Assembly (NCBI GenBank): GCA_905235605.1
Contig: CAJOMF010000005.1
Coordinates: 1-47,508, forward strand
DNA: 47,508 nucleotides
Source: an uncultured bacterium
GTDB lineage: Bacteria > UBP6 > UBA1177
Direction of reading: 5' to 3'
Both the position numbers and the translations under genes were made by a program. Below the pieces are notes generated by a model. It worked only from the letters and a program-made list of their open reading frames with translations, was not told the origin of the DNA and did not search any database. Shown here in pieces: positions 23,517-38,007 of the stretch; within the stretch, counting starts at the first letter, position 1, and each line of letters starts with the position of its first letter.

Positions 23517-25694
23517 TCAGTAGTTTTCCGTACTGCCAGGCTTTGCCGGAACGATGACGGTCACCGGCTGGGTGTCGAGCACAGAATTCGTTTTGTTGTC
23601 GATTACGTTGATGTATGCCTTGAACATTTTCGCCTCTTTTTCCTGCGGGAAACAGTCATTCAGGGCTTCGACGTTGAAAGTGAGTTTGTTACCTGGAGTA
23701 TCTGCGGTCGAAGTTCCGGTCGAGAAATTGCTGAAACCGTTGTTGTAGTCAGCTCCGTTGAATGCCGCAGGTGTCGCCACGATTGTTGCGGCGCAGCTGT
23801 CGACCGGCTGATATTCGAGAGCCTCGACTTTTTTAAGGAAACACGATGTGTCAAGCGACGGATTGTCGGCATCTTTGGCAGGTTCGACCCTGACATCGAA
23901 ACTTGCATATTTGATAAGTGCATCGACACCGGCAACAGCGGTATCCCCCAATCCTGTCCCGTATTTATCCAATTCATAGAGAAGAGTCGTTCTTCCGGCG
24001 TCGGCACAGGTCGGAACGATTGCGCCGGTTCCGTTTGAAACTGAGGTGAGCTGTGTCTTTGCAGCGCTATAATTCGAACTTCCTGCCGATAGAACGGAAA
24101 CGACTTTTGCTCCGATTGTATTCATAGCAGTAATAACATCCGACTGGCTGAATATTGTGTAGACATAAGAAGAATTGTAAGGCTTGTGGGAAGAATCATG
24201 CGAAGCGTCGTCTGTGATATGGATAACTATCGGGATAGCTCCGTCTCTGAAAAAGACTTCATGGGCGGGCACGGAACCGCCCTTCCAGCTCAGTTCGACT
24301 CCTGTAGCAATTTTGTAAAGCGATTCATAACCTGACTCAGGAAGATCGTTACCGTTGTGGAGTGTTAGCTGGTTAACACCTGCCTGAGCTGTTGCAACGT
24401 CTATAGTCGGCGTCTGGAGCAAACCGAAAGGTCTGTCGCTGCCGCTTCCGTAACCGTTGACCGGAAAGTCATCAAAATAAGAGATACCGAACGCACTATC
24501 GGAAATTTTGTTGCGGATCCCGGGGATAATTGTTGTGGAAAGACTGTTTTTCAGGTTGTTTATCTCGTCTCCCATTGAGGCTGTCGTATCGACATTGAAG
24601 AAAATATCGGCTTTATGGACCTGCGGAGAAAAAACAAGGGTGTCGTTTTGTTTTTCCCCTTCGTAGGGAAGCTCGAAATAGAATTTTACGCCGACATCCA
24701 TGACTCCGCTTTCAGCATCGCACGGATCGCTTCCAACCATAACTTCTGCAAGATCGCTGTAGCCGTCGCCGTCGGTATCCCTGCTTGTGGCAGAGTGAAC
24801 ACCAAGATTTTCGCAGAAGATTTCCTGACTGTCCGGCAGACCGTCACCGTCACTGTCGGTTTCCATAAAATCGGGGATGTTATTGTTGTTCGAGTCGCGG
24901 CAGGGCAGCATAGGACACTCTTTTGCGTCAGGAATACCGTCGCCGTCGCTGTCCCAGTCCAAATAGTTCGGAATGCCGTCTCCATCAGTATCTTCGGCTG
25001 TTTCCACCCTGTCAGGAATGCCGTCGCCGTCGCTGTCCTCATCGATGTAATCAGGCAGACCGTCACCGTCGGTATCAGGACATTTCTGATCCTGCTCATA
25101 ATCAGGACATTCTTCGGAATCAGGAATGCCGTCAGCGTCACTGTCTATGTCGCGGTAATTCGGCAGACCGTCACCGTTTGTATCGGGGCATATTTTATTT
25201 TCTGCAAAGTCAGGACACTCTTCAGAATCAGGAATACCGTCGCCGTCTGAATCAGTATCTTTGTAATCGGGAGTGCCGTCTTCATCTGTATCGACCGGAA
25301 CGCCTTTCGGAACCTCGATGCAATTCGGGATACCGTCACCGTCTTCATCCGCTTTGCACCAAGCTGCGCCGTGCTCTGAAGCAAAAGACGGAACTTCATA
25401 CTGCTTGCCGAAACAGTCGCACATAACACCTGTTTTTTCGTTTGGATTGTCTGTATCTGAAGTGTCTGAGTCACCTGAATCGGAGCTGTCTCCAGAATCG
25501 GAAGTATCCGCAAAAGTGTCACCTGAATCGGAAGTGTCGGCTGCGTCGGGACGCTGACATCTTCCCGTATTGCATACGAAACCGATTTCACAATCAAGAG
25601 AACTTGCGCATCCGATTCTTTCGGCAGAATTTCCGCATCCGCAGAAAGCAAGAGCGGTAAACAGCGCGATTATTGCAAAAAATAATTTTTTCAT
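23517..25694 (-). CDS. lipoprotein with TSP3-type calcium repeats and a vWA domain
   Basis: This 725-residue protein has a lipoprotein-like signal (MKKLFFAIIALFTALAFCGC) and a cysteine-rich short domain. A D/S/T/G-rich linker (about 50-85) and about ten DxDGDGxPD thrombospondin type-3-like repeats (about 110-330) that should bind calcium come next. From about residue 360 there is a vWA domain with the MIDAS-like DTTASM motif and HITDDASHDSS. A C-terminal beta-domain follows. It is surface or periplasmic and probably adhesive. GGAGG precedes the ATG. It is divergent from the type IV secretion-like operon and may be a partner of it, by position only. Confidence 0.88.
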   Translation of the reverse strand: MKKLFFAIIALFTALAFCGCGNSAERIGCASSLDCEIGFVCNTGRCQRPDAADTSDSGDTFADTSDSGDSSDSGDSDTSDTDNPNEKTGVMCDCFGKQYEVPSFASEHGAAWCKADEDGDGIPNCIEVPKGVPVDTDEDGTPDYKDTDSDGDGIPDSEECPDFAENKICPDTNGDGLPNYRDIDSDADGIPDSEECPDYEQDQKCPDTDGDGLPDYIDEDSDGDGIPDRVETAEDTDGDGIPNYLDWDSDGDGIPDAKECPMLPCRDSNNNNIPDFMETDSDGDGLPDSQEIFCENLGVHSATSRDTDGDGYSDLAEVMVGSDPCDAESGVMDVGVKFYFELPYEGEKQNDTLVFSPQVHKADIFFNVDTTASMGDEINNLKNSLSTTIIPGIRNKISDSAFGISYFDDFPVNGYGSGSDRPFGLLQTPTIDVATAQAGVNQLTLHNGNDLPESGYESLYKIATGVELSWKGGSVPAHEVFFRDGAIPIVIHITDDASHDSSHKPYNSSYVYTIFSQSDVITAMNTIGAKVVSVLSAGSSNYSAAKTQLTSVSNGTGAIVPTCADAGRTTLLYELDKYGTGLGDTAVAGVDALIKYASFDVRVEPAKDADNPSLDTSCFLKKVEALEYQPVDSCAATIVATPAAFNGADYNNGFSNFSTGTSTADTPGNKLTFNVEALNDCFPQEKEAKMFKAYINVIDNKTNSVLDTQPVTVIVPAKPGSTENY

Positions 25695-25972: not shown

Positions 25973-26281
25973 TTGAGAAAAATTAAATTGCGTGGATTTG
26001 TTGTTTTTGTGATCTTTGTTTTGGTTTTTTCTGATTACATATTTGCGGTAGCAGATACCGGCGGGATAAAGTCGAAATTTCAGGAGATGGCCGATACTGT
26101 TTTTGATGTCGCAAGATACATCGGGATCTACGGCGGTCTCGGCGGGGCTATAGTTTCGCTTCTTTTCAGATATATCAACAAGGATCAGAACATCTGGTCA
26201 GACGCGCTGAAAATCCTGGGCGCAGGTGCGGGACTTGCCGCCTTTTCGACGATTTTGAGCATTATTGCAGGCTGGATATGA
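25973..26281 (+). CDS. VirB2/TraA-like pilin subunit
   Basis: 102 residues starting at TTG (25973) with GAGAGG eight bases upstream. A signal peptide (about 1-26) is followed by a short polar segment, then two hydrophobic helices at about 46-65 and 79-101 joined by a charged loop (RYINKDQNIWSD). This two-helix form, with a glycine-rich first helix (YIGIYGGLGGAIVSL), is that of VirB2/TrbC pilins. It is the first gene of the operon, the normal place for a pilin. Sequence identity in this family is low, so topology and context carry the call. Confidence 0.72.
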   Translation: MRKIKLRGFVVFVIFVLVFSDYIFAVADTGGIKSKFQEMADTVFDVARYIGIYGGLGGAIVSLLFRYINKDQNIWSDALKILGAGAGLAAFSTILSIIAGWI

Positions 26282-26562
26282 AAGTGTTCGGGATTCTGGG
26301 TACAAAGCAGACTTTTGTCGATAAAGGTCAGGCTGCGGTCATGACGCTGTTTTTCTTTTCCGGCGCACTTTTGAAAGACATCTTTCTTCTTCTTGTTTTT
26401 CCGGCCGTGATTTTCGCAGTAACTTTTTTTATCCGCGAAAAAGTTTTTTCGGGCAAATCGGAATGGTGGATCTTTGTTCTCAGGATGTTTGACGGCGGAA
26501 AAGTTTTCTACTGCCGCCAGCAGAGAGACCGATCGGGGAGAAATAATGAAAAGCATCTTTGA
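26278..26562 (+). CDS. VirB3/TraL-like inner-membrane protein
   Basis: This 94-residue protein overlaps the pilin stop by four bases (ATGA). A short N-terminus (FGILGTKQTFVDKGQ) is followed by two closely spaced hydrophobic segments at about 21-31 and 35-52, and a basic C-terminus. This is the size and topology of VirB3/TraL, which lies between pilin and VirB4 genes in most type IV systems. The last 17 bases overlap the start of the ATPase gene. Confidence 0.7.
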   Translation: MKVFGILGTKQTFVDKGQAAVMTLFFFSGALLKDIFLLLVFPAVIFAVTFFIREKVFSGKSEWWIFVLRMFDGGKVFYCRQQRDRSGRNNEKHL

Positions 26563-28891
26563 AATGCTCAAAATAGCCGCGGTCGAAGAAGATTTTATCT
26601 TCAATTTTTCGATGCAGCGTTTTTCCGTCTGGGAAACTCAAGGAGCCGACTGTTATTTTTTTTCGCCTGATCTTCAGAGAGTGAACTCGTTTTTCATGCG
26701 TGAAGCCCGCGAGGGAACGACTGTCGAATTTTTTGCTGTTGTACGGGGAAAAGACGGGCTTGTCGAAGAACGCTGCTCTTGCGAAAGCGAGCCGGTGATA
26801 AAGCAGAGACTTGTTTTTCTTCGCAGAAAAGGGATCAAAAAAATCCGGTATTTTTTTGCGGTTTCAAGCGATTTTCCGAAAAGTGAGATCCCGAAAGCTC
26901 TTCCAGACATCACATACCACAAAAACTTGGTAGAAAGCTTCGAAGTAAGTGCGCGGCGCCTTGATACAGCTGAAATCAAAGAACTTCTTTACGAACTCAT
27001 ATCTTTCAACGGAGAGATGAAGATCCACCCCGAAATGAGCGTCCGCGAAGAACTTATTCAGAAACAGTGTTCTGCAACTCCCGGATATTTCAAAGTAGGG
27101 AACACTTTCTGCAAAGTCCTTTCTCTGAAATTCATGCCGAAAGAGACGCATCCTTTCATGGTTTCCCGCATTATCGACTCAATTCCGGGAAACTTTACTT
27201 ATTCGGTTTCATTCACAGTGCTTCCGCAGTCAAGAGAGCTTCTTTCTCTCGAAGCAAAAGAGCGTTTCTACATCGCTACAAGCGGCAGAGGGGCTGCAAA
27301 AAACGCAAAGGAAACTGACGAGCTGATGAATCTTCTTACAGTTTCAAAGCACAAAATCGGCTTTCTTTCGGCAAAAATCGTCATTTCTGAAAACGATGGC
27401 TTACTTCTTGAAAAACGGGCGGAAGAAATATCCGTTTTCATGAAAAACGGAGGTTTCTTTTTTGAAGAGGAGACATGGGGGCACGATCTCGAATTTTTCA
27501 GGTCTCTTCCGACTCTTATGAGTCTTTCCGGGCGTCAGATCAGAGTACTCAGTGCCAATTTTACCGACATGATCCCTGCGGCGAAACACGGTCACGGTGA
27601 TTCCGAGGGCAGATTCCCGCTCTTTTTAAGGAACCGCTTCGGTGAAATTTACGGTTTTGACGCCGGATCATCCAGGCGCAACAACAAAAACGGCTCTGTT
27701 TTCGGCTGCTCGGGAAGCGGAAAATCGGTTACTGTGAACACTCTCATAGCCCACACATTTTTTCCTAATATAAAATCGGACAAAAATTTTCCTGGTCGTA
27801 TTTTCATCGTCGATTTTGCAGGGGCTGAAAATTCCAGCTATCTCAAAATGGTGAAACTTTACGGCGGTGTTTTTATTCCGATAGATTCCGGCGGAAAAAT
27901 CGTGATAAACCCTTTTCCGAAGCGGGATACAGTGTATTCAGATGGAAAGTGGAACAGTTCTGTGCTCAACTTTCTGAATACGATTCTTTATATCATTCTT
28001 GAGATCCGCGAAAAAAACATGAACGCCGATCTTTTCAGAAACATCGTTTCAAAGGCTGTCCGCAGCATGTATGCGGTAAAAAGCGAACCTGTTCTTGAAG
28101 ATCTTGTCGGTTTTATCGAAGATGACGACACAGCAAAGGCCGAAGTTATACGCAGGCTTCTCCGCGGTTTTCTGGATGATCCTGTTTCACGCATCATAAA
28201 CGGAAAATCAACTGTCGATTACGGCAGAGAGCCTTTTGTGATCTACGATTTGCAGGGGATTTCGGGACTCAACGAAAAACTGAAGGAACTTCTGACTTTC
28301 ATCGTCATTCAGGAGGCGAAGCGGAGTGCTTTCGGGATAACGAACAGCTTCATTGTATTTGACGAGGCGGCGCAGCTTATCAAAGATCCGCGTCTTGCCG
28401 ACCTTATCGAAGAACTTTTTGCAACTGCGAGAAAGTACAATACCGGAGTGTGGACCGTGACGCAGAATTTTCTAAGTTTCAAAGAGGTTTCACTATCTTC
28501 AAAAATAAAGATCAACACTACGACGACCATATTTCTGAGCCACGCGAACGATGAAGAGGCAAAGCGTGTGATTGCCGAAGATTTTGGTCTCAGTGCCGCT
28601 GAAAAAGAGGCTTTCGAAAGTCTGAAAACTGTGAAAGGAGAGTATTCAACAGCCCTTTTCAGAACTCAGACCGGTGAAAAAACTGAATCTGAAGTCGTAA
28701 AAATCGAGCTTTCGCCTTTTGATTATGCCGTTGCAACGAGCGACAAGGAGGAAAACCGGCTTCTTGCAAAATTTGCCGAAGTTCTCGGTCTGAACCTGGT
28801 CAACGCCTGTGCTGAAGCGGCAATGCTGGCATATAGGAAAAATATTTTCGTAATTGATGCTGTGAAAGAATTTTTAAGGGATAAAATATGA
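26546..28891 (+). CDS. VirB4/TraC-like secretion ATPase
   Basis: 781 residues from the ATG at 26546 (GGGGAG upstream); the open frame begins at 26474 but that start lacks a site. The N-terminal part resembles TraC of F-type systems (FSMQRFSVWETQGADCYFFSPDLQ region). The C-terminal RecA-like domain has Walker A FGCSGSGKSVTVNTL at about 387-400 and Walker B SFIVFDEAAQL at about 600. ARKYNTGVWTVTQNFLSF follows. It should power pilus assembly or transport at the inner membrane. This is the anchor for naming the operon a type IV secretion-like system. Confidence 0.9.
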   Translation: MKSIFEMLKIAAVEEDFIFNFSMQRFSVWETQGADCYFFSPDLQRVNSFFMREAREGTTVEFFAVVRGKDGLVEERCSCESEPVIKQRLVFLRRKGIKKIRYFFAVSSDFPKSEIPKALPDITYHKNLVESFEVSARRLDTAEIKELLYELISFNGEMKIHPEMSVREELIQKQCSATPGYFKVGNTFCKVLSLKFMPKETHPFMVSRIIDSIPGNFTYSVSFTVLPQSRELLSLEAKERFYIATSGRGAAKNAKETDELMNLLTVSKHKIGFLSAKIVISENDGLLLEKRAEEISVFMKNGGFFFEEETWGHDLEFFRSLPTLMSLSGRQIRVLSANFTDMIPAAKHGHGDSEGRFPLFLRNRFGEIYGFDAGSSRRNNKNGSVFGCSGSGKSVTVNTLIAHTFFPNIKSDKNFPGRIFIVDFAGAENSSYLKMVKLYGGVFIPIDSGGKIVINPFPKRDTVYSDGKWNSSVLNFLNTILYIILEIREKNMNADLFRNIVSKAVRSMYAVKSEPVLEDLVGFIEDDDTAKAEVIRRLLRGFLDDPVSRIINGKSTVDYGREPFVIYDLQGISGLNEKLKELLTFIVIQEAKRSAFGITNSFIVFDEAAQLIKDPRLADLIEELFATARKYNTGVWTVTQNFLSFKEVSLSSKIKINTTTTIFLSHANDEEAKRVIAEDFGLSAAEKEAFESLKTVKGEYSTALFRTQTGEKTESEVVKIELSPFDYAVATSDKEENRLLAKFAEVLGLNLVNACAEAAMLAYRKNIFVIDAVKEFLRDKI

Positions 28892-29778
28892 ATTTCAACA
28901 TCTGTTACAACCCCAGGATCCTTCTTGAATCGGCCGGTGCCGGCTGGCTCTGGAGCGTTGTTTTTATCATTATTTCTATAGGTTTAGCCATAAGTTTTAT
29001 TGCCGAAATTTTCAAAATACAGAAGTCTGAAAAACCCGATTTCGCAGGTGTCGCGTGGAAGACGGTGCTTACGCTTCTGCTCTATCTTTATCTACCTGAT
29101 TTTATTGAAAAAATAATGCTTGTTACATATCAGTTCCCGATAGTTGAAGAGCTCGATGAAGAGTTTTTCAAGGCCTTTTCCCTTTATTCTTCGAATCTTC
29201 TGATGATATCCGGTCTTTCGGGAAGTGTTACGGCAGCGTGCCCGCAGTTTTCCGATCCGCTTTTAGGAGAAGCCGGCACAACACTGATCACATCTTTTTA
29301 TTTCCAGTATTTCTGCAAATTGGCAGTTTTTCTGCTCATGCTTTTTGTATGGACTGCAAAAGAAGTCATATTTTCTTATGGCTGGGGGACTTTGATGTCG
29401 CTGAATATGGTCGGATTATGCTTTGCGCTAGTCTTTCCGGCCTTTCCGAATCAGGGTTTCGCTTCAATCGGAAGTTTTTTCCGTTCCATTGCTGTTTTTG
29501 CCCTTTGGCCTGTGCTTTACGCCGTTTTTATCTTCATTACCGGTAAGGCACAGGTCGAGATCATGAAGCTCGCTTCGGAAATATGTTCATGCCCTTACAG
29601 TTTCAGGATAGACAGAGACGCTGTAACTGTTGTTTCCGGGCTTATCTTTACCGGGCTCGGTATTGCAGGAATTCCGCTTTTTGCTTCGAAAGCGGCAGCT
29701 TCGGAGCAGCTTAAAAGTGCTGTCGCAAATATAAAGACGATGAGTTCAGCAGCTATAGACCGTTACAGGATGAAATGA
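28888..29778 (+). CDS. VirB6/TrbL-like polytopic membrane protein
   Basis: This 296-residue protein overlaps the ATPase stop by four bases. About six hydrophobic helices can be seen (near residues 18-42, 53-72, 133-155, 160-182, 195-217 and 240-262) with a hydrophilic loop between the second and third. The position between VirB4 and VirB8 homologues and the polytopic topology fit VirB6, the inner-membrane channel component. No sequence motif defines this family, so it is inferred. Confidence 0.65.
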   Translation: MNFNICYNPRILLESAGAGWLWSVVFIIISIGLAISFIAEIFKIQKSEKPDFAGVAWKTVLTLLLYLYLPDFIEKIMLVTYQFPIVEELDEEFFKAFSLYSSNLLMISGLSGSVTAACPQFSDPLLGEAGTTLITSFYFQYFCKLAVFLLMLFVWTAKEVIFSYGWGTLMSLNMVGLCFALVFPAFPNQGFASIGSFFRSIAVFALWPVLYAVFIFITGKAQVEIMKLASEICSCPYSFRIDRDAVTVVSGLIFTGLGIAGIPLFASKAAASEQLKSAVANIKTMSSAAIDRYRMK

Positions 29779-30515
29779 TGAAAAACAATGATGCTTCAAA
29801 TTTTTTCGATACGCTGAAGTATCGCGACATTGAGAAAATACGGAAAGGTTTCCGGATACTTGCGATAACTTTCTGCGTTATGATGTTTCTGATAACTCTT
29901 TCAGCCCTTCTTTTTGCATGGTCTGTTTCAATGAAGCCTGCTCCGGTCATAGCCTTTGACAAAGAGGGGAGGAGGCTCGTTTTTTACGGTAGCGAAACGC
30001 TTGAGACTTCAACCAATTTGGTTAGGATCCACCGTTTTATTACAGATTTTATCGGTAAGTTTGACGGAGTGAGCCCCAATATCGACGAAGATCTTAAAGA
30101 GGCCTACAATATGCTTACTCCCAAATTCAGGCAGATACTGCTCGACAAGTCGGTACACAAGGAAAAGATAGAAACTTGGAAAAACAAAAATTTTGAGACG
30201 AAGTTCCGGCTTACGAAGCTCAAAGTAGTGAAAGGTGCATTGGATGTAGGTTCCACGCTTACTGTAGAAGGGCTCGGCGAGATGACTTTCGGCAATGCCG
30301 TCGACTATTCGGGAGAAAACGGGAAAAAGAAAACTCTTGTCTGGTTTTCGGCGTTGCTTTTTGTTGTTCCGGTCTCGCTCGAACTCTCTCCCGACGGGCT
30401 TCTCGTCGATTTCTACACCGGAAAAAGTTTTGAAGATTTCAGGGAACTTCGGGCTTATCTCACCGAAAACGGAAAAGAATATCTTATTGAAGAGGAAAAA
30501 GAACAGCTGGAATGA
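29775..30515 (+). CDS. VirB8/TraE-like inner-membrane assembly protein
   Basis: This 246-residue protein starts at the first of two consecutive ATGs, overlapping the previous stop. A cytoplasmic N-terminus, one transmembrane helix at about 28-50 and a periplasmic NTF2-like domain give the VirB8/TraE layout. RIHRFITDFIGKF, LTPKFRQILLD and KFRLTKLKVVKGALDVG resemble TraE-type proteins. It probably scaffolds the inner-membrane complex. The stop overlaps the next ATG. Confidence 0.75.
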   Translation: MMKNNDASNFFDTLKYRDIEKIRKGFRILAITFCVMMFLITLSALLFAWSVSMKPAPVIAFDKEGRRLVFYGSETLETSTNLVRIHRFITDFIGKFDGVSPNIDEDLKEAYNMLTPKFRQILLDKSVHKEKIETWKNKNFETKFRLTKLKVVKGALDVGSTLTVEGLGEMTFGNAVDYSGENGKKKTLVWFSALLFVVPVSLELSPDGLLVDFYTGKSFEDFRELRAYLTENGKEYLIEEEKEQLE

Positions 30516-31459
30516 AAAAACTTCTGATTTTATTAGCTTTATTCTCTGCATTAAGTGCTTATGGCAGGGATTTCGACAGTGCTGAAGAAAAGGCGAAATT
30601 TATCCCTATCACTGAAAAAGTTGCCGTGATCACGATCAGCAGCAGCGATACAGTGATCTACAGGACTGTGAATATTGCTCTGGGAGAAGTTTTCGTCTTT
30701 GAATTTCCTGAAAATATCTCGCTTACCGAGACACCGACAGTCGGGGATGCAGGTCTTCTCAAAATCGAAGTCGAAACGGAACCTTTAAAGATGAAAGTCT
30801 GGGGGCTCATGTTCAGTGAGGCGCCAGAAGAGGCTTTGATGTACGGACTCAGTTCAAATGTGCAGTTCAAAATAAATTCAGGGCAGGCGTTCATTTTCAA
30901 TTTCGTGATAAGTCCGACAGAAGATGCAAGCAACAGGATAATTTTTTCCTATCCCGAGTGGGAAACTTCTAATAAGGCAGTCAATAAACATTTGGAAATG
31001 TTGAGAAAAGAGCTTGAAGAGAAGTACGAAAAACGGATGAAGGAGATAAAAAAAGAGATAGATAAAAGCATGATAGGGATGATGGCAAAATCTTTCAGCG
31101 AATTTTTCCAGTGCAGCAGCTATTCTGCCAGAACTGAAGAGGAGCTTGTTTTCTTAAGGAGTGACCGCATCTGCAAGATAGGAAAAGACGCGCTAGTGAC
31201 GGTAAATTTTTCAGTCAAAAACCGCTACAGGCAGCGTTTCCACATTGAATCGGTGAAGATCTATTCGACGAAAGGCGGGAAGGTCGAGATCGACAATGCC
31301 CAGTATCATATCGACAGGTTTTCGATGCAGTTCGACGAGATAGTGAGCGGCGGTATCGCCTTTAAAATAAGCGATGAAGACTATTCACGCGAATACATAA
31401 TCGAAGTGAATGAAAGTGCCGGGAAAAAGCGCAAACTTGAACTGAAGGTATCGTTTTAA
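30512..31459 (+). CDS. VirB9/TraK-like periplasmic protein
   Basis: This 315-residue protein has a signal peptide of about 18 residues (MKKLLILLALFSALSAYG). A beta-rich N-terminal domain, a charged coiled-coil-like stretch at about 155-195 (LRKELEEKYEKRMKEIKKEI), and a second beta-rich domain with DRICKIG and VNFSVKNRYRQRFHIESVKIY follow. The two-beta-domain layout between VirB8 and VirB10 homologues fits VirB9/TraK, part of the outer-membrane core complex. The inserted coiled coil is not typical. It overlaps both neighbours. Confidence 0.6.
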   Translation: MKKLLILLALFSALSAYGRDFDSAEEKAKFIPITEKVAVITISSSDTVIYRTVNIALGEVFVFEFPENISLTETPTVGDAGLLKIEVETEPLKMKVWGLMFSEAPEEALMYGLSSNVQFKINSGQAFIFNFVISPTEDASNRIIFSYPEWETSNKAVNKHLEMLRKELEEKYEKRMKEIKKEIDKSMIGMMAKSFSEFFQCSSYSARTEEELVFLRSDRICKIGKDALVTVNFSVKNRYRQRFHIESVKIYSTKGGKVEIDNAQYHIDRFSMQFDEIVSGGIAFKISDEDYSREYIIEVNESAGKKRKLELKVSF

Positions 31460-32496
31460 TGGAAAAAAAGGAAAAATCGCCCCTCGAAATACTGGCTGAA
31501 AGTGAAAAAAACGTGGAATCAGCTGCTGTTCCTAATGAAGAAAAGGGTGATCAGTATGCGGCTCTGCGCAGGAAAGTCACCTTTTTCATCCTCTTTTCCG
31601 CTTTTTTTCTTGTTATCACAATTTTTACGACCGTTCTTTTCAAAGGGGAAGACAGGAAAGTGAAAGATGAAAATGCCGAAACGAAATTCAATGACTTCAG
31701 TGAGCTTTTACGCGGCAGGGTGGTAGGTGACATAGAATCTGCGATGAATGCAAAACATAAGAAAGATTTTGAAGCAGAAACAGAAGAAAAACGTGCTGAA
31801 GTTCCTGTAAAAGCGGCTCTTGCAAAGAAAAGGAATAAGAATGAGGAAAAGGATCGTGAGATACTTGAGGCTTACGCGAAAATGAGCGATGCCGCAGCTT
31901 CAGACCTTACTCAGACAGGGAGGAAAAGACGCTTTGTTCCAGGCGGGGAAAATTCCGGCGGCGGAGTTTTTGTCAAAGGAAAAAAAGATGCCGGGAAAAA
32001 AGAGAACATGTTTGCACTGCACGATGTCAAAGTGAAGGTCAAGCTCGACTTTTCGATCCGTTCTACTGCCCAGTCCACGGTCGTCGCGACTGTTCTTGAA
32101 GAAACTGACAGGATCCCGAAAGGGGCTAAGTTTTACGGAAGTGCCAAAAGTTTCGTAAACAAGCGGACACAGCTTGCCTTTTCAAAACTCATCATCGGTA
32201 TGGAGGAATTTTCGGTCAAGGGGTTTGCCGTTTCAGGCAAAGACCCTGGGATAGAGTCGGAAGTGACTGACATTTCGGATGAAAATATAAAGTCGGAAGT
32301 GAAGCAGGGAATTACCAAAACCGCAGGAACGATTTTAACCGGTCTTGCCGGAAGTGTGGGGAGCACTGCCGGAACGACCGCCGCAAACACGGTGAATCCT
32401 GCAGCAGCTGAGCTCGCTAAGCAGGAAGAGGCTAACAAAATGAAGCAGGAATACAGAGTCCCTGCCGGAACATCGTTTTTTGTGTATCTGGAATAG
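31459..32496 (+). CDS. VirB10/TraB-like core-complex protein
   Basis: This 345-residue protein has a cytoplasmic N-terminus, one transmembrane helix at 41-61, a long charged periplasmic linker (62-180) and the conserved C-terminal TrbI-like beta-barrel from about 188. RIPKGAKFYGSAK, NKRTQLAFSKLII and the final VPAGTSFFVYLE are typical VirB10 elements. The hydrophobic AGTILTGLAGSVGSTAGTT stretch (289-307) is at the place of the antenna helices that form the outer-membrane pore. It spans both membranes. TAATG couples it to the preceding gene. Confidence 0.85.
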   Translation: MEKKEKSPLEILAESEKNVESAAVPNEEKGDQYAALRRKVTFFILFSAFFLVITIFTTVLFKGEDRKVKDENAETKFNDFSELLRGRVVGDIESAMNAKHKKDFEAETEEKRAEVPVKAALAKKRNKNEEKDREILEAYAKMSDAAASDLTQTGRKRRFVPGGENSGGGVFVKGKKDAGKKENMFALHDVKVKVKLDFSIRSTAQSTVVATVLEETDRIPKGAKFYGSAKSFVNKRTQLAFSKLIIGMEEFSVKGFAVSGKDPGIESEVTDISDENIKSEVKQGITKTAGTILTGLAGSVGSTAGTTAANTVNPAAAELAKQEEANKMKQEYRVPAGTSFFVYLE

Positions 32497-32497
32497 C

Positions 32498-33124
32498 ATG
32501 AAAAAACTTATAGTTCTGATTTTATTAATGTTTTCTTTTAACATCTTCGCTGAAGAGGGGGAGATACAGATAAATATCGGCGGCGGCGGATTTTTCCCGT
32601 TTTCGCTTAAAACCGATGATAAAACGACTGTCGTATATGCAAGCTGGAATGCCGGACTTGATCTCTTTTTCGGTCTTACCGACAACTTCGATATCGGCTT
32701 GCAGGCTTCATTTACGAGAGTAGGCGATACTTCCAGAAAAGCTGAATTTCAGGATATCAAAGGGAAGGAATATTTCGATTACTGGCGGGTTCAGACATTT
32801 GTTCTTGCAAGATACAATCTTTTTCCGGGCACATTTTTTTCTCCTCATCTTGTTGCAGGCGGCGGATTCAAAGTCGAGACTTTTTCCAATATCGAATTTA
32901 TTGATGAAAGCGGCAGGAGCATTGCTGTTTACAAAAAGGAAGACTACGCGAAAGTAAACGGCGTCATTGCTGCAGGGCTCGACTTCCAGTTCAGAGTGTG
33001 GGAGTGGATCATTCTTTCGACACAAGTGCTCTACAAGTGGTCCCCTCACGATCATTCGCTTGATTTGTTCGGTTTTTTCGGGGCGACATTCTTTGTTAAC
33101 TATTATAACTGGGGGAAAGTATGA
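32498..33124 (+). CDS. outer-membrane beta-barrel-like protein
   Basis: 208 residues from the ATG one base after the VirB10 stop (the reading from 32480 lies inside virB10). A signal peptide (MKKLIVLILLMFSFNIFA) is followed by alternating hydrophobic/aromatic strands: GGGFFPFSL, GLDLFFGLTDNFDIGLQASF, LVAGGGFKVETF and AAGLDFQFRVWEWIIL. The C-terminus is rich in Phe and Tyr (FGATFFVNYYNW). It resembles small OmpA/OmpX-type barrels of eight strands. Standard VirB systems lack such a gene. It may anchor the giant lipoprotein or line an exit route. Confidence 0.72.
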   Translation: MKKLIVLILLMFSFNIFAEEGEIQINIGGGGFFPFSLKTDDKTTVVYASWNAGLDLFFGLTDNFDIGLQASFTRVGDTSRKAEFQDIKGKEYFDYWRVQTFVLARYNLFPGTFFSPHLVAGGGFKVETFSNIEFIDESGRSIAVYKKEDYAKVNGVIAAGLDFQFRVWEWIILSTQVLYKWSPHDHSLDLFGFFGATFFVNYYNWGKV

Positions 33125-36100
33125 AAAAGATTTCTTATTTTTTCTTTTGTATCGTACTATTTTTTCTTGTCGTTTCGTGCGACGGCAAAAGACCGGATAA
33201 CGGAATACTGGAATTTGATCTGACAGTTCAGGCTATACAGAAAAATGCACAGGTCGAAATTCTTGACGGAGAAAATGTGATTTTGTCGGGAAAAACCGGT
33301 GAAAACGGTACTGTCCGGTTTGAATCTGTGCGGAATATCGGCGATCTCAAAGTTAAAGTGTGCGGCGGATCGATTGATCTGGTATCGTCAAACGAGGCTG
33401 TGGCGTGGAACGGATGCAGCGAAGCCAGTGTGATGGCGGCAGATGAAAAAAATATCCTTGTTGCTGTCGATTTTTTCTCTTCGTTTATCGAAAAATACAG
33501 GTCGGAAACCTCGCAGGCAGAGTGGTTCGAATATCTCGGCATTTCGGGTGATGTCTTTCCCGAACTTCAGAGTTCTCTCACTGATGCCACTAAGCGCTGG
33601 CTGTGGCAGCAGGCTTTCGCGAAGATCGCAGAAACGGTCTCAGCCGCAAACGGGACACAGCCGGAGACACAGTTTTCTACCGAAAATCTGCTGACCATGC
33701 TTTATAATGATCTCACGGACGACAACACAATAAACGGCTCGACCTATGCGAAATTCGGGAGCGCAACTGTCAGCGCAGCTTTTATGAAAGGGCTCGTCAG
33801 CAGTTTTTTAAGTGAAGTCAGCGGCAAATTTTCAGAAGCCGAGCTTAAAGAGTGGAGTGAAAAAATAAGGACATCTGAAGCAAAGTTCCTGGGCGGCGAA
33901 GACGCTGAAAAAAGCGAAGTTTCAATAGAAATCGAAGTCTATCCTGAAGGAAACAAGGGAGCAGTGCCTGAGTATTTCAGCGGTACTGTCACAGTCGAAG
34001 CGAATGCAGAACCTGAAAATGCTATAGTGACGCTCAACTGTTCTTCCGACGGAGAAAAACTGGCTGACAAAGATGAGGAGGCTGCTTCTTTTCTCGGGAG
34101 TTTCACTACTGAAAGTATCGAAGATGAAAAAGAAGTTGTTGTCCGTTGTGAAGCAAGCAACGGCATAACCCTTGAAACTGCCGAAAAAACGATAATCGTA
34201 AACAACGGGGCTCCTTCGGTTCGCGCAGATTTTTACAGGCACGGAACTCTTGAAGCAGCGGCAACGGAGGAAGAACCGGCGAGAAACAGCATCGATATAA
34301 AGGTAGAAGCTGCTCACAAAAGGTATGCAATAGAAGAAATTTCATGTTCGATCGAAGGTTATCCGATGGAAAACCTGAGCAATACGGCTCATCAGTATAA
34401 AGCGGTAGTCGATACCGAAAAACTTCCCGACGGACAGAATATTCTTGACTGTACTGTTTCAGTGAACAAAAGAGAATATCGGACTGCATTCCCGTTTTAT
34501 ACGAAAAACACGGTTTCAGTTAAAGTGAGACCTTTTGTGACAAACCCTTTGAACGGTTTTGAAAATGTTTCGGTTTCATGCAGGAACGGTTCAGGGAACA
34601 TAAAAACCGACAATCTTTCTTCTTCGGCAGACAAGATACAAGTAAAACTGGGCAGGGTGTGCATGGTGAGTGTTTCGGGCGGCACTTACGAGCCGGTAGT
34701 TTCTGAAAATGCAGGAGCGAAGCGGTTTAACGGCACTTTGTCGGCTGTATTTATTCCCTCGGGTGATGAAGATGTCATTGTTACGCCGCTTACGACAGTG
34801 GGAGCTTATATTTTTACAAACCGCAGAATTTCGGAAAATGTTTCCGATGAAGAGCTTTACGACCTTGTTTCGACGCACCTTTCGCAGCATTTGAGCCATG
34901 CTTTTGGCTGGAATGAAGAACCTTTTGACACAAATGCCGCAGACAACAGAACGAAATATTTTATTCTGCTTGCAGGTCTTGAATACCTTGCATATTTTAT
35001 GGAGACAAATATCGGCTCTGAGCACGGGATCTACGATGTTTCCAATGTTTTGCAGCTTTTGCAGGAAGACTATAAAGACACGGTTTTCGACGGAAAAAAC
35101 GGCAGTATACAGCTTTTTTTCGGTGAAAACAGCGACGAAACGGCAGAACTTGATTCCAACTTTTTCAGATACTACTACGCTCTTTCGATAAAAAGGTTTC
35201 TTACGAGTTCTTTCAATGAAACGGTCTTTTCGCAGTTGGGCTCTATTGCCGGAAATATCGCCTCAAATTCCGATCAGTTTCTTTTCCCGGCTGAAAGTGT
35301 ACCCGTTCCGGTCGATTCATCGGGACCAAAAATAGAAATGCTTGGTTTTAACGATCTTTTTGAAACTGAAGATGAAGACAATGCTGAGGTAACCGGTGAT
35401 TTGGGCAGTTACACAAAAGGAGAGTTCGTTCAGTATGATCCTCAGAACGGTTCTATACCTCATTTCGCAAAGGCTTTTCTTCTTAAATTCAGGGTGATTC
35501 CTGAAAACGGGAGTCTTGCCGATCTCAACTCCGTAACTTTGCAAAGCAAATCCACCGATTTTGTTTTCAGAGTGAAAAAAATAGAGCCGCAGAGCATTGA
35601 AAGAAGCGGATTTTCAAGTGAAAGCTGCGAATTTGTCATGCTTGCCGAATATTCAGGGGATGAAATCGTTCCGATGGAGAAACTGCTTGAATTTTCTGTT
35701 TCGGCGCAGGATATAGCTTACAATACAGCAGAAAAAGATGTCTCTGTTTTCCTTGACAACAAAAGACCTTCTTTAAATCTGAACTGCACGGATGGGACTG
35801 TCAGAGCTGAAGATGTCGAAATTTCGTGGAGCGTTTCGGACAGCCTTGTGGAAAATATAAAATTTACTCTTGCCAAGTGGGAAGAAGAGGAGACGGTCAT
35901 TTTTGAAGAAGAGAGGGAAAGCTGCGCTGCAAATGAATGTTTTTTTTCATCTGAAAAATTTGCCGAAGCCCTTCTTGATGCAGGGATTTCCGGAAGTGAT
36001 GCTGACGGTCTTTACAAAATCACTCTTTCTGCAACTGATCATGCCGGAAACCGTTCGACGCTGTACTGTTCCTTCAAAGTCGATACGACTCCGCCGGAAG

Positions 36101-38007
36101 TTCCGCTTATCAGTTTGGAATCTGACGGAAGAGTGCTTTTCAAAAACAGTGTTATAAACAAGAATTATTTTACCGCTTCACTGATTGATCCTGACAAGGA
36201 TATAGTCAGATGGGCTCTCAAGGTTTCATGCGGCGTTTCAGACGGATCTTTTTCTCAGGATAAAACAGGCGGCTATGTCGCACCGGGCGAAAGTCTCGAT
36301 TTTTTCAATCTGCTTACCCCTGCGGAAGACAGCAGGTTTGTTGAATGCAAAGGTTTTCTCTCTGTCTGCGATGAAGTCGGTAACTGTACGAATGAGGATT
36401 TCAGCGATTCTTCAGGCTCTGTTTTTATAGACAACCGTCCGCCGCGCTTTGTCTCTTACGATACTGAAAAATCTGTTTTTACAGAGTGTATCGACGATGA
36501 TTCTATGTTCAATGTAGCTCATTGTGTCAATGGTCCCAACTGTAGTGCAAGCGGATATGTTTTGATAAACAGACCTAAGCCGCAGATCCTGCTTTCATAT
36601 ACAGACAATTTTTCGGATCCTGAAAATATGCTGGTTTTTATACAGTCTTCTGAAGTAGGCTGGATAAAAAACTGTCAATATGTGCCGAATCAGGATTCAG
36701 GAATTTTTCAAGGCAACTGCGATAAGTTCTACTGCGGTCTCGACGGCAGTGTCAACGGTATCAACAACTTTACTATCACGGCTTACGATGAAGTGGGCAA
36801 CCGTTCGGAGCACTCATTGACGATACCGATGGATTTTACGCCGGTAGAGCCTGTTAAAATCAACTTGACGGAAAAGTTTTTTACCAGTAATAGCAAATCC
36901 AATCTGTGGTGGGATACAAAAAGCGGTGTCGATTACAAGTGCACGATAACAAAACAGGGGAACACGATTTTTTCGGCAGATTGCTCGAATAACAGCGATA
37001 TTATGGCGTCAATGCTTATTGGAAGCGGCTATTACACAGTTACTGTCGAAAGCAGTTCTGCAACAACAAAAAGGACAGATGTGACAGAATTCAAATTTTT
37101 CGATATGACTGACCTTGATCTTTCTCTGGAGCCGCAAAAAGGGCAGTTTCTTTATCACGGTGATACTTTCAAAGTCAGACTTAAGGTGGATTCCGGGAAA
37201 ATGGCTGAAATTTCAAACATAGAGCTTTATCTTTACGGCAGATATCTCAACGGTCTTCTTCAGGACAATAACGAAAAACTTGTTGTCAGCATGAGTTATC
37301 CGATGGCGATCTCTTCTTTAAACAGTGTGTTGTCTTCAGTATTGCCTGTGGAAAGTGCGGGTCAGTTCAGAAACATGAAGGTGATTATCACTTTTTCGGA
37401 TACGAGCAACTATATCAGGACTTTTACGCAGTCTTCGGCAAACGCTTTTCTATACTGCCTTCTTTCTTCCGATGAAAAGCCCGACAGAGCCGCAGTAAGT
37501 TTCAAAAACAAAGCTCTCGATGTCAGTTTCGACAAGCCATCGTGTATTTCCGAAAACGACTATATTTTAACTTTCAATGCCGAAACGCCTTCCGTCTGCG
37601 GAGGAAAGGAGGTTCTCTCTGCATCTGTTTCCGCAGTGAAAAATTATCAGAACAACTTTACGGTCAAGGGCGATTTCGTATTTTACAAAAACGAAAATCA
37701 TTACCACGACTTTGATTGCAACATTTTCGGTAATCTCTGTTTAACTCTGGATCATTCGTGTGCCGTGGAGACGCACAATTTTGCATCAGGTACAAATCTT
37801 AAAATCGCTTATAACAGCGGAAAAACTTTCACTGTATATCCCGATTCCAGCGTTCAGTGCGAACGCTCTGAAGCGGAGATAGTTTTTTATGATGAGAGTG
37901 GTGATTATGATGAATATGACAACAGAAACTGCAAAAAGTGTGTCAATAAATTGAGCAGTCCGGCAAACTGCTTCGGCGGGAAATACAAAACTGTAAACCT
38001 GAAGTAA
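33121..38007 (+). CDS. giant 1628-residue surface lipoprotein with Ig-like repeats
   Basis: The signal (MKKISYFFFCIVLFFLVVSC) ends in the lipobox VVSC. A carboxypeptidase-regulatory-like beta domain (about 24-95) and a helical part follow. A second similar pair lies at about 460-700 (NTVSVKVRPFVTNPLNG, then EELYDLVSTHLSQHLSHAF). From about 730 onwards Ig-like/fibronectin-like units have boundaries at NNGAPSV (361), SSGPKIE (733), DNKRPSLN (878), VDTTPPEVP (987), DNRPPRF (1104) and DFTPVEP (1238). The C-terminus is cysteine-rich (KKCVNKLSSPANCFGG). It ends the operon, overlapping the barrel gene by four bases. It is probably surface-displayed; no enzymatic domain is recognised. Confidence 0.85.
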   Translation: MKKISYFFFCIVLFFLVVSCDGKRPDNGILEFDLTVQAIQKNAQVEILDGENVILSGKTGENGTVRFESVRNIGDLKVKVCGGSIDLVSSNEAVAWNGCSEASVMAADEKNILVAVDFFSSFIEKYRSETSQAEWFEYLGISGDVFPELQSSLTDATKRWLWQQAFAKIAETVSAANGTQPETQFSTENLLTMLYNDLTDDNTINGSTYAKFGSATVSAAFMKGLVSSFLSEVSGKFSEAELKEWSEKIRTSEAKFLGGEDAEKSEVSIEIEVYPEGNKGAVPEYFSGTVTVEANAEPENAIVTLNCSSDGEKLADKDEEAASFLGSFTTESIEDEKEVVVRCEASNGITLETAEKTIIVNNGAPSVRADFYRHGTLEAAATEEEPARNSIDIKVEAAHKRYAIEEISCSIEGYPMENLSNTAHQYKAVVDTEKLPDGQNILDCTVSVNKREYRTAFPFYTKNTVSVKVRPFVTNPLNGFENVSVSCRNGSGNIKTDNLSSSADKIQVKLGRVCMVSVSGGTYEPVVSENAGAKRFNGTLSAVFIPSGDEDVIVTPLTTVGAYIFTNRRISENVSDEELYDLVSTHLSQHLSHAFGWNEEPFDTNAADNRTKYFILLAGLEYLAYFMETNIGSEHGIYDVSNVLQLLQEDYKDTVFDGKNGSIQLFFGENSDETAELDSNFFRYYYALSIKRFLTSSFNETVFSQLGSIAGNIASNSDQFLFPAESVPVPVDSSGPKIEMLGFNDLFETEDEDNAEVTGDLGSYTKGEFVQYDPQNGSIPHFAKAFLLKFRVIPENGSLADLNSVTLQSKSTDFVFRVKKIEPQSIERSGFSSESCEFVMLAEYSGDEIVPMEKLLEFSVSAQDIAYNTAEKDVSVFLDNKRPSLNLNCTDGTVRAEDVEISWSVSDSLVENIKFTLAKWEEEETVIFEEERESCAANECFFSSEKFAEALLDAGISGSDADGLYKITLSATDHAGNRSTLYCSFKVDTTPPEVPLISLESDGRVLFKNSVINKNYFTASLIDPDKDIVRWALKVSCGVSDGSFSQDKTGGYVAPGESLDFFNLLTPAEDSRFVECKGFLSVCDEVGNCTNEDFSDSSGSVFIDNRPPRFVSYDTEKSVFTECIDDDSMFNVAHCVNGPNCSASGYVLINRPKPQILLSYTDNFSDPENMLVFIQSSEVGWIKNCQYVPNQDSGIFQGNCDKFYCGLDGSVNGINNFTITAYDEVGNRSEHSLTIPMDFTPVEPVKINLTEKFFTSNSKSNLWWDTKSGVDYKCTITKQGNTIFSADCSNNSDIMASMLIGSGYYTVTVESSSATTKRTDVTEFKFFDMTDLDLSLEPQKGQFLYHGDTFKVRLKVDSGKMAEISNIELYLYGRYLNGLLQDNNEKLVVSMSYPMAISSLNSVLSSVLPVESAGQFRNMKVIITFSDTSNYIRTFTQSSANAFLYCLLSSDEKPDRAAVSFKNKALDVSFDKPSCISENDYILTFNAETPSVCGGKEVLSASVSAVKNYQNNFTVKGDFVFYKNENHYHDFDCNIFGNLCLTLDHSCAVETHNFASGTNLKIAYNSGKTFTVYPDSSVQCERSEAEIVFYDESGDYDEYDNRNCKKCVNKLSSPANCFGGKYKTVNLK

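Follow-up and report, generated by a model that had tools for sequence, protein, structure and literature searches.

What is a VirB-type type IV secretion system (T4SS) for when no relaxase, coupling protein or VirB11 gene is linked to it? The question was raised by an operon at positions 25973–38007 of contig CAJOMF010000005.1 (assembly GCA_905235605.1) from an uncultured bacterium of the phylum UBP6. The window analysed was this whole contig (G000:C5; 47,508 nucleotides), part of a 2.67 Mb genome that is 96% complete. An initial annotation described the operon as a compact T4SS with no relaxase, coupling protein or VirB11 tied to it, and this description was supported. The answer that we favour, though tentatively, is that the UBP6 machine is a VirD4-less contact or adhesion organelle derived from a conjugation machine, and not a DNA-transfer apparatus. 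Comparisons were made among 28 genomes of the phylum, of which 19 belong to the same family (f1) and one (G019) to its sister family (f2); near relatives of the source genome are rumen and gut metagenome assemblies. No published work on this operon was found in the literature. The nine genes, all in the same direction, are:

25973..26281, + strand, VirB2-like pilin, 102 amino acids (aa); putative, from size, hydrophobic segments and position
26278..26562, + strand, VirB3-like membrane protein, 94 aa; putative, from topology and its place ahead of VirB4
26546..28891, + strand, VirB4 ATPase, 781 aa; PF19044, PF03135, TIGR00929 and Walker A/B motifs
28888..29778, + strand, VirB6-like polytopic membrane protein, 296 aa; putative, from hydrophobic segments and position
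29775..30515, + strand, VirB8-like inner-membrane protein, 246 aa; PF04335 in orthologues
30512..31459, + strand, VirB9-like protein, 315 aa; predicted fold match
31459..32496, + strand, VirB10/TraM-like protein, 345 aa; PF12508 and PF03743 in some orthologues
32498..33124, + strand, outer-membrane beta-barrel, 208 aa with signal peptide; OMP_b-brl and TDE1717 family
33121..38007, + strand, giant surface lipoprotein, 1628 aa; lipobox and homology to the pYRE plasmid lipoprotein

As the initial annotation had described, the genes follow one another almost without gaps, with junctions ranging from −17 to +1 bases (in order −4, −17, −4, −4, −4, −1, +1 and −4). The value of +1 holds for the barrel ATG at 32498; with the upstream TTG at 32480 as start, this junction would be −17. 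Because the VirB4 and VirB6 genes overlap by 4 bases, there is no room for a VirB5-like gene between them in UBP6, and no VirD4, VirB11 or relaxase gene was present within the operon itself. Scans for consensus promoters and terminators gave results at chance level. Ratios of nonsynonymous to synonymous substitution rates (dN/dS, NG86) lay between 0.03 and 0.20 across all nine genes, indicating purifying selection throughout; constraint was strongest on VirB9 (0.03–0.04) and weakest on VirB3, VirB10 and the lipoprotein. Together with the occurrence of orthologues in the same order, these values indicated real, selected genes.

The presence of VirB4 with Walker motifs, of VirB8 and of a VirB9/VirB10 core identified the operon as a diderm VirB-type T4SS. 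VirB4 matched PF19044 (57 bits), PF03135 (29 bits) and TIGR00929 (151 bits), retained intact Walker A (GCSGSGKS) and Walker B (FIVFDE) motifs, and was the only PF19044 match in the genome and single-copy in the family. Searches of Pfam and NCBIfam with single window proteins named no VirB2, VirB3, VirB6, VirB8, VirB9 or VirB10; VirB8 and VirB10 were named by scanning orthologues one by one, and VirB9 by folding. PF04335 matched 10 of 15 VirB8 orthologues (best 5.1e-7), and PF12508 (TraM) matched three of 13 VirB10 orthologues (best 9.7e-5), with PF03743 in two; the VirB10-like protein has one N-terminal hydrophobic segment. For VirB9, the CagX Pfam score (0.015 at best, in 2/13 orthologues) was not usable. 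Its AlphaFold model (predicted local distance difference test, pLDDT, 67) was compared by Foldseek, and the top eight PDB matches, all with probability 1.00, were TrwF/VirB9, F-plasmid core-complex chains, Dot/Icm chains and CagX, while sequence searches of the PDB gave chance matches only. The identities of VirB4, VirB8, VirB9 and VirB10 are confirmed, that of VirB9 through the match of its predicted fold.

The labels VirB2, VirB3 and VirB6 remain putative, being based on topology, size and position. The VirB2-like protein, for which Pfam gave no match, has a signal peptide and a C-terminal hydrophobic segment, with orthologues at 80–100% within the genus and 70–84% farther out; the VirB3-like protein has two adjacent hydrophobic segments, and the VirB6-like protein has five (TrbL_4 0.013 in one orthologue). 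In the VirB/Tra profile check proposed with the initial annotation, VirB4, VirB8 and VirB10 were matched (the last two in part of the orthologues), VirB2 and VirB3 were unmatched, VirB9 gave no usable score and VirB6 gave the one TrbL_4 score.

The last two genes encode the barrel, which matched OMP_b-brl (6.8e-6 in one orthologue) and the TDE1717 family (1.3e-4), and the giant lipoprotein, in which C-x-x-K-R-P comes after the lipobox and which has immunoglobulin-like (Ig-like) stretches, 37 cysteines and weak Big_13 and OmpL47 matches in Pfam/NCBIfam. Its N-terminal approximately 360 residues are conserved, and later parts mostly show 4–30% identity in distant members. This N-terminus occurred in one copy per genome, with no N-terminal paralogue in the 18 family genomes tested or in f2. 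Its predicted fold was poor (pLDDT 61) and matched generic Ig/NEAT-type domains only, from which no conclusion was drawn.

The system was single-copy in all 19 family genomes and in G019 of the sister family. VirB9 was found in every one of these genomes, always once, including one only 59% complete, and VirB4 in 18/19 family genomes, the exception being the least complete. A third family (f3) carried a related operon in two of five genomes (G020 and G024); the system was not found in the other three (G021–G023) or in three other genomes of the phylum. A VirB9 match in G037 belonged to a glycosyltransferase-like gene at an unrelated locus and was rejected. The order VirB4-VirB6-VirB8-VirB9-VirB10-barrel-lipoprotein was kept in f1 and f2 wherever the contig was long enough, and the gene order anticipated for related genomes was borne out in all genus and family loci not cut by a contig end. 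In f3, two VirB8-like genes stand side by side and VirB10 precedes VirB9 (L048:5550-6883; L049:3724-5408), and in G024 the lipoprotein adjoins the barrel. The barrel and lipoprotein followed VirB9 and VirB10 in every member with enough sequence other than G020.

In the VirB4 tree, all UBP6 sequences grouped in a single clade (100/100) that branches in line with the families; relations outside UBP6 were weak and branches long. The upstream neighbour was an aromatic amino acid lyase gene in most genus loci, and the window neighbour genes are of chromosomal housekeeping types. The family-like branching and the shared upstream lyase argue for vertical inheritance at a fixed place. Two family members have an extra gene inside the operon, between VirB2 and VirB3 (L043:2988-4433) and between VirB10 and the barrel (L051:4402-5460), by eye a putative AlbA/Schlafen-like and a DUF1016-like protein. 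The VirB4 gene of G010 is broken by one TGA (L050:1926-1954), either an assembly error or a single broken copy.

Relatives of the operon were found on three plasmids from two other phyla. The best plasmid VirB4 match was pYRE of Myxococcus stipitatus (27% identity), which the operon profiles also matched in VirB8 (30 bits) and VirB9 (41 bits). This plasmid encodes a 1605-aa lipoprotein homologous to the giant lipoprotein (63 bits) and, near it, a barrel homologous to the window barrel (blastp 4e-6); the link came via VirB4, as tblastn of the window lipoprotein against plasmids gave no match. The same set as in pYRE was present on a second plasmid, unnamed1 of Myxococcus sp. MxC21-1. On both, the barrel is placed after the lipoprotein, and a Ser/Thr protein kinase domain precedes the VirB10/TraM domain in one fused protein (L090:17858-20299; L092:28385-30760); Pfam confirmed this fusion for pYRE, and for MxC21-1 it was assigned from the annotation, the position and a weak match to the profile. 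On a plasmid of Candidatus Tenderia electrophaga, the order was two small genes, VirB4, VirB5-like, VirB6-like, VirB8, VirB9, VirB10, barrel and lipoprotein, with a coupling protein ahead of the VirB operon; the similarities are individually weak here and the likeness rests on the common gene order. Each of the three plasmids encodes a coupling protein and has, between VirB4 and VirB6, a gene that looks VirB5-like. When searched against 72,556 plasmids, the pYRE lipoprotein matched, besides itself and one Vibrio record group, only the other two plasmids, where the lipoprotein in each case adjoins the VirB operon. Burkholderia and Vibrio lipoprotein matches were rejected as related systems, since no comparable VirB operon adjoined them. 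The Tenderia plasmid is typed with a MOBP relaxase, and pYRE and MxC21-1 as non-mobilizable; a mating-pair type is assigned to none of the three.

A giant lipoprotein and a barrel next to VirB9/VirB10 are common to the UBP6 operon and the three plasmids, with the same order in Tenderia, but sequence similarity is low, the plasmids have a coupling protein and the additional VirB5-like gene, and the VirB4 tree, with its weak outer relations and long branches, does not unite them with UBP6. Since related plasmid machines with a coupling protein also end in a barrel and a lipoprotein, both are probably old components, passed down within a conjugation-type lineage that is poorly catalogued. The view that these last genes would be a new feature of VirD4-less systems was not supported, although their place in the order is kept in f1 and f2. 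Specific to UBP6 would be the loss of the coupling protein, the relaxase and the VirB5-like gene, a direction of change that we infer, and the UBP6 version looks domesticated. What is new is the chromosomal form free of a coupling protein, and the recognition of the barrel and giant lipoprotein as marks of a lineage across three phyla. It is possible, if somewhat doubtful, that a terminal outer-membrane barrel and a giant Ig-like lipoprotein mark a distinct, as yet unnamed T4SS lineage present in three or more phyla, and that in one uncultured phylum this machine became fixed on the chromosome, with neither coupling protein nor relaxase, as an organelle dedicated to cell contact that has the giant lipoprotein at its centre.

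Searches for the missing transfer parts elsewhere in the genome, as proposed earlier, returned no VirD4, VirB11 or relaxase by PF02534, PF03432, PF08751 and T2SSE matches, a result that divergent coupling proteins may have escaped. For VirD4 the one family searched, PF02534, had no match in the source genome or in any family genome searched; PF12696 and PF10412 recognise the pYRE coupling protein but PF02534 does not, and no Pfam family recognises that of Tenderia, so that a divergent one could escape this search. Two relaxase families were covered: PF03432 was absent from all 28 genomes and PF08751 was found only in G020. None of the five strong T2SSE ATPases of the genome was VirB11; they are PilT (twice), PilB, a TfpB-like ATPase and GspE. 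Many conjugation systems also lack VirB11 (PMC13395361), so its absence is not diagnostic. In G020 alone, five TrwC-type relaxase and two VirD4 (TraD) matches lay on contigs other than that of the operon (C126, C146, C258, C265 and C266), and its machine may be conjugative.

The function that we propose builds on the genes, their order and conservation, the losses at the sensitivity of the searches and the plasmid relatives, all of which are observed. A conjugation lineage already ending in a barrel and giant lipoprotein would have given rise to a chromosomal, vertically inherited VirB-type T4SS, in which loss of the relaxase, the coupling protein and the VirB5-like gene would have ended export of DNA or protein from the cytoplasm. 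VirB4, VirB3, VirB6 and VirB8 would supply the power to assemble a filament or pseudopilus of VirB2 through the VirB9-VirB10 core complex, on which the barrel and the lipidated giant protein would dock at the outer membrane. The conserved N-terminus of the lipoprotein would act as anchor, perhaps substituting for VirB7, and its faster-evolving Ig-like part would point outward and attach to a surface or a partner cell. This part would keep mating cells together in conjugative relatives, and UBP6 would have retained the adhesion or contact. Because the lipoprotein accompanies the machine even where a coupling protein is present, the two settings are best accounted for by a role in contact or adhesion; the conserved N-terminus, the diverging later parts and the nearly frozen VirB9 also support it. 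T4SSs that lack VirD4 and are proposed to form adhesive pili are an established class, the Trw system of Bartonella being an example (PMC12857230).

Several points weigh against this reading. The filament, the surface exposure and location, the binding and the function are all things that we infer. There is one VirB2 gene and no VirB5 in the operon, unlike the many, variable VirB2/VirB5 copies of Trw, which resembles the UBP6 system in lacking VirD4 and in its proposed adhesive pilus. The dN/dS of the lipoprotein, about 0.15, shows no positive selection, and in G020, which carries the operon, the barrel is not followed by a lipoprotein of this kind. Lipoproteins of Vibrio and Photobacterium that do not belong to such machines share the N-terminal domain of the Tenderia lipoprotein, so part of the lipoprotein similarity reflects a shared domain. 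One of these, a 2658-aa Vibrio lipoprotein (L094:7698-15671), has no VirB operon nearby, which indicates a wider use of the domain.

Other T4SSs without coupling proteins suggest other roles: Ptl releases periplasmic proteins, ComB takes up DNA and Trw is proposed to form adhesive pili (PMC12857230). We rank contact or adhesion first, cargo export second, and DNA uptake and cryptic transfer third. Two-step export as in Bordetella Ptl, with Sec carrying the lipoprotein or other proteins across the inner membrane and the VirB machine carrying them across the outer, would agree with the Sec/SPII-type signal of the lipoprotein, a possible Sec-exported partner encoded last in the operon, with its strict one-to-one co-occurrence with the machine, and with the lack of VirD4 and VirB5 as in Ptl (PMC12857230). 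We consider it unlikely, as homologues of the UBP6 lipoprotein lie beside conjugation-type plasmid machines with coupling proteins, where they are likelier structural or contact factors, and its conserved end is the N-terminus. Ptl also has VirB11, and none was found in this genome; its cargo is a toxin. That the apparatus is still a transfer machine, served in trans by a coupling protein and a relaxase that are divergent or encoded on a plasmid, appears quite improbable. The plasmid relatives do have coupling proteins of a kind that the PF02534 search could miss, and G020 combines the operon with TraD/TrwC genes on other contigs, but the window neighbours are of housekeeping types, no family genome searched had a PF02534, PF03432 or PF08751 match, PF19044 matched once in the genome and the chromosomal position is fixed across most of the genus.

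ComB of Helicobacter pylori had been named as the closest known gene content. It shares the VirB2-4, VirB6 and VirB8-10 content and the lack of VirD4 and VirB5 (PMC12857230, PMC13395361), and uptake of DNA to the periplasm by such a machine, with ComEC acting onward, would be in keeping with ComEC in 16/18 family genomes searched and with family HHH_3 matches in open frames of approximately 420 and 700 aa, none of them small and ComEA-like. However, ComB has VirB7 and VirB11, was shown in 2026 to require VirB11 (HP1421/ComB11; PMC13395361), which was not found here, and replaces type IV pili, whereas pilus ATPases and secretins are present in UBP6; a barrel or giant lipoprotein is not known from ComB, and the latter would be unexpected for uptake. 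ComEC was equally present in relatives without the operon, and f3 also lacked a small ComEA. As pilus ATPases and ComEC also occur in operon-less relatives, nothing ties the operon to competence; ComB is a weaker analogue than first suggested and a role in DNA uptake improbable. The family ComEC is short (open frames of about 440–620 aa; e.g., L086:3017-4591), with no small ComEA-like HHH_3 protein found; in the f4 genomes of the phylum, the ComEC frames are longer and small HHH_3 proteins do occur.

Two further systems invite comparison. The Tra system of Bacteroidota conjugative transposons resembles the operon in that the UBP6 VirB10 matches the TraM family and Tra also has a TraO gene; TraO, however, was not detectably related to the UBP6 barrel by profile, and the UBP6 VirB4 did not group with TraG in a tree whose deep branches are weak. 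The T4SSs of Patescibacteria are likewise widespread in a candidate lineage, chromosomal, mostly without relaxase and presumed to be repurposed (PMC12102498), but belong to the monoderm MPF-FATA lineage and lack a VirB9/VirB10 core. The UBP6 operon would add a repurposed T4SS free of a coupling protein and present throughout a family that only metagenomes have revealed. For T4SS classification, a barrel and a giant lipoprotein travelling with the VirB9-VirB10 core in unrelated phyla would provide a new landmark, and the gaps in plasmid typing (non-mobilizable calls, no mating-pair type) imply that such systems have probably been overlooked. As to how these machines make contact with a partner cell, the lipoprotein is a candidate that can be tested.

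Upstream of the operon and divergent to it, the window encodes a large lipoprotein with TSP3 repeats (23517–25694). It adjoins the operon in only two other loci and is thus not a fixed partner.

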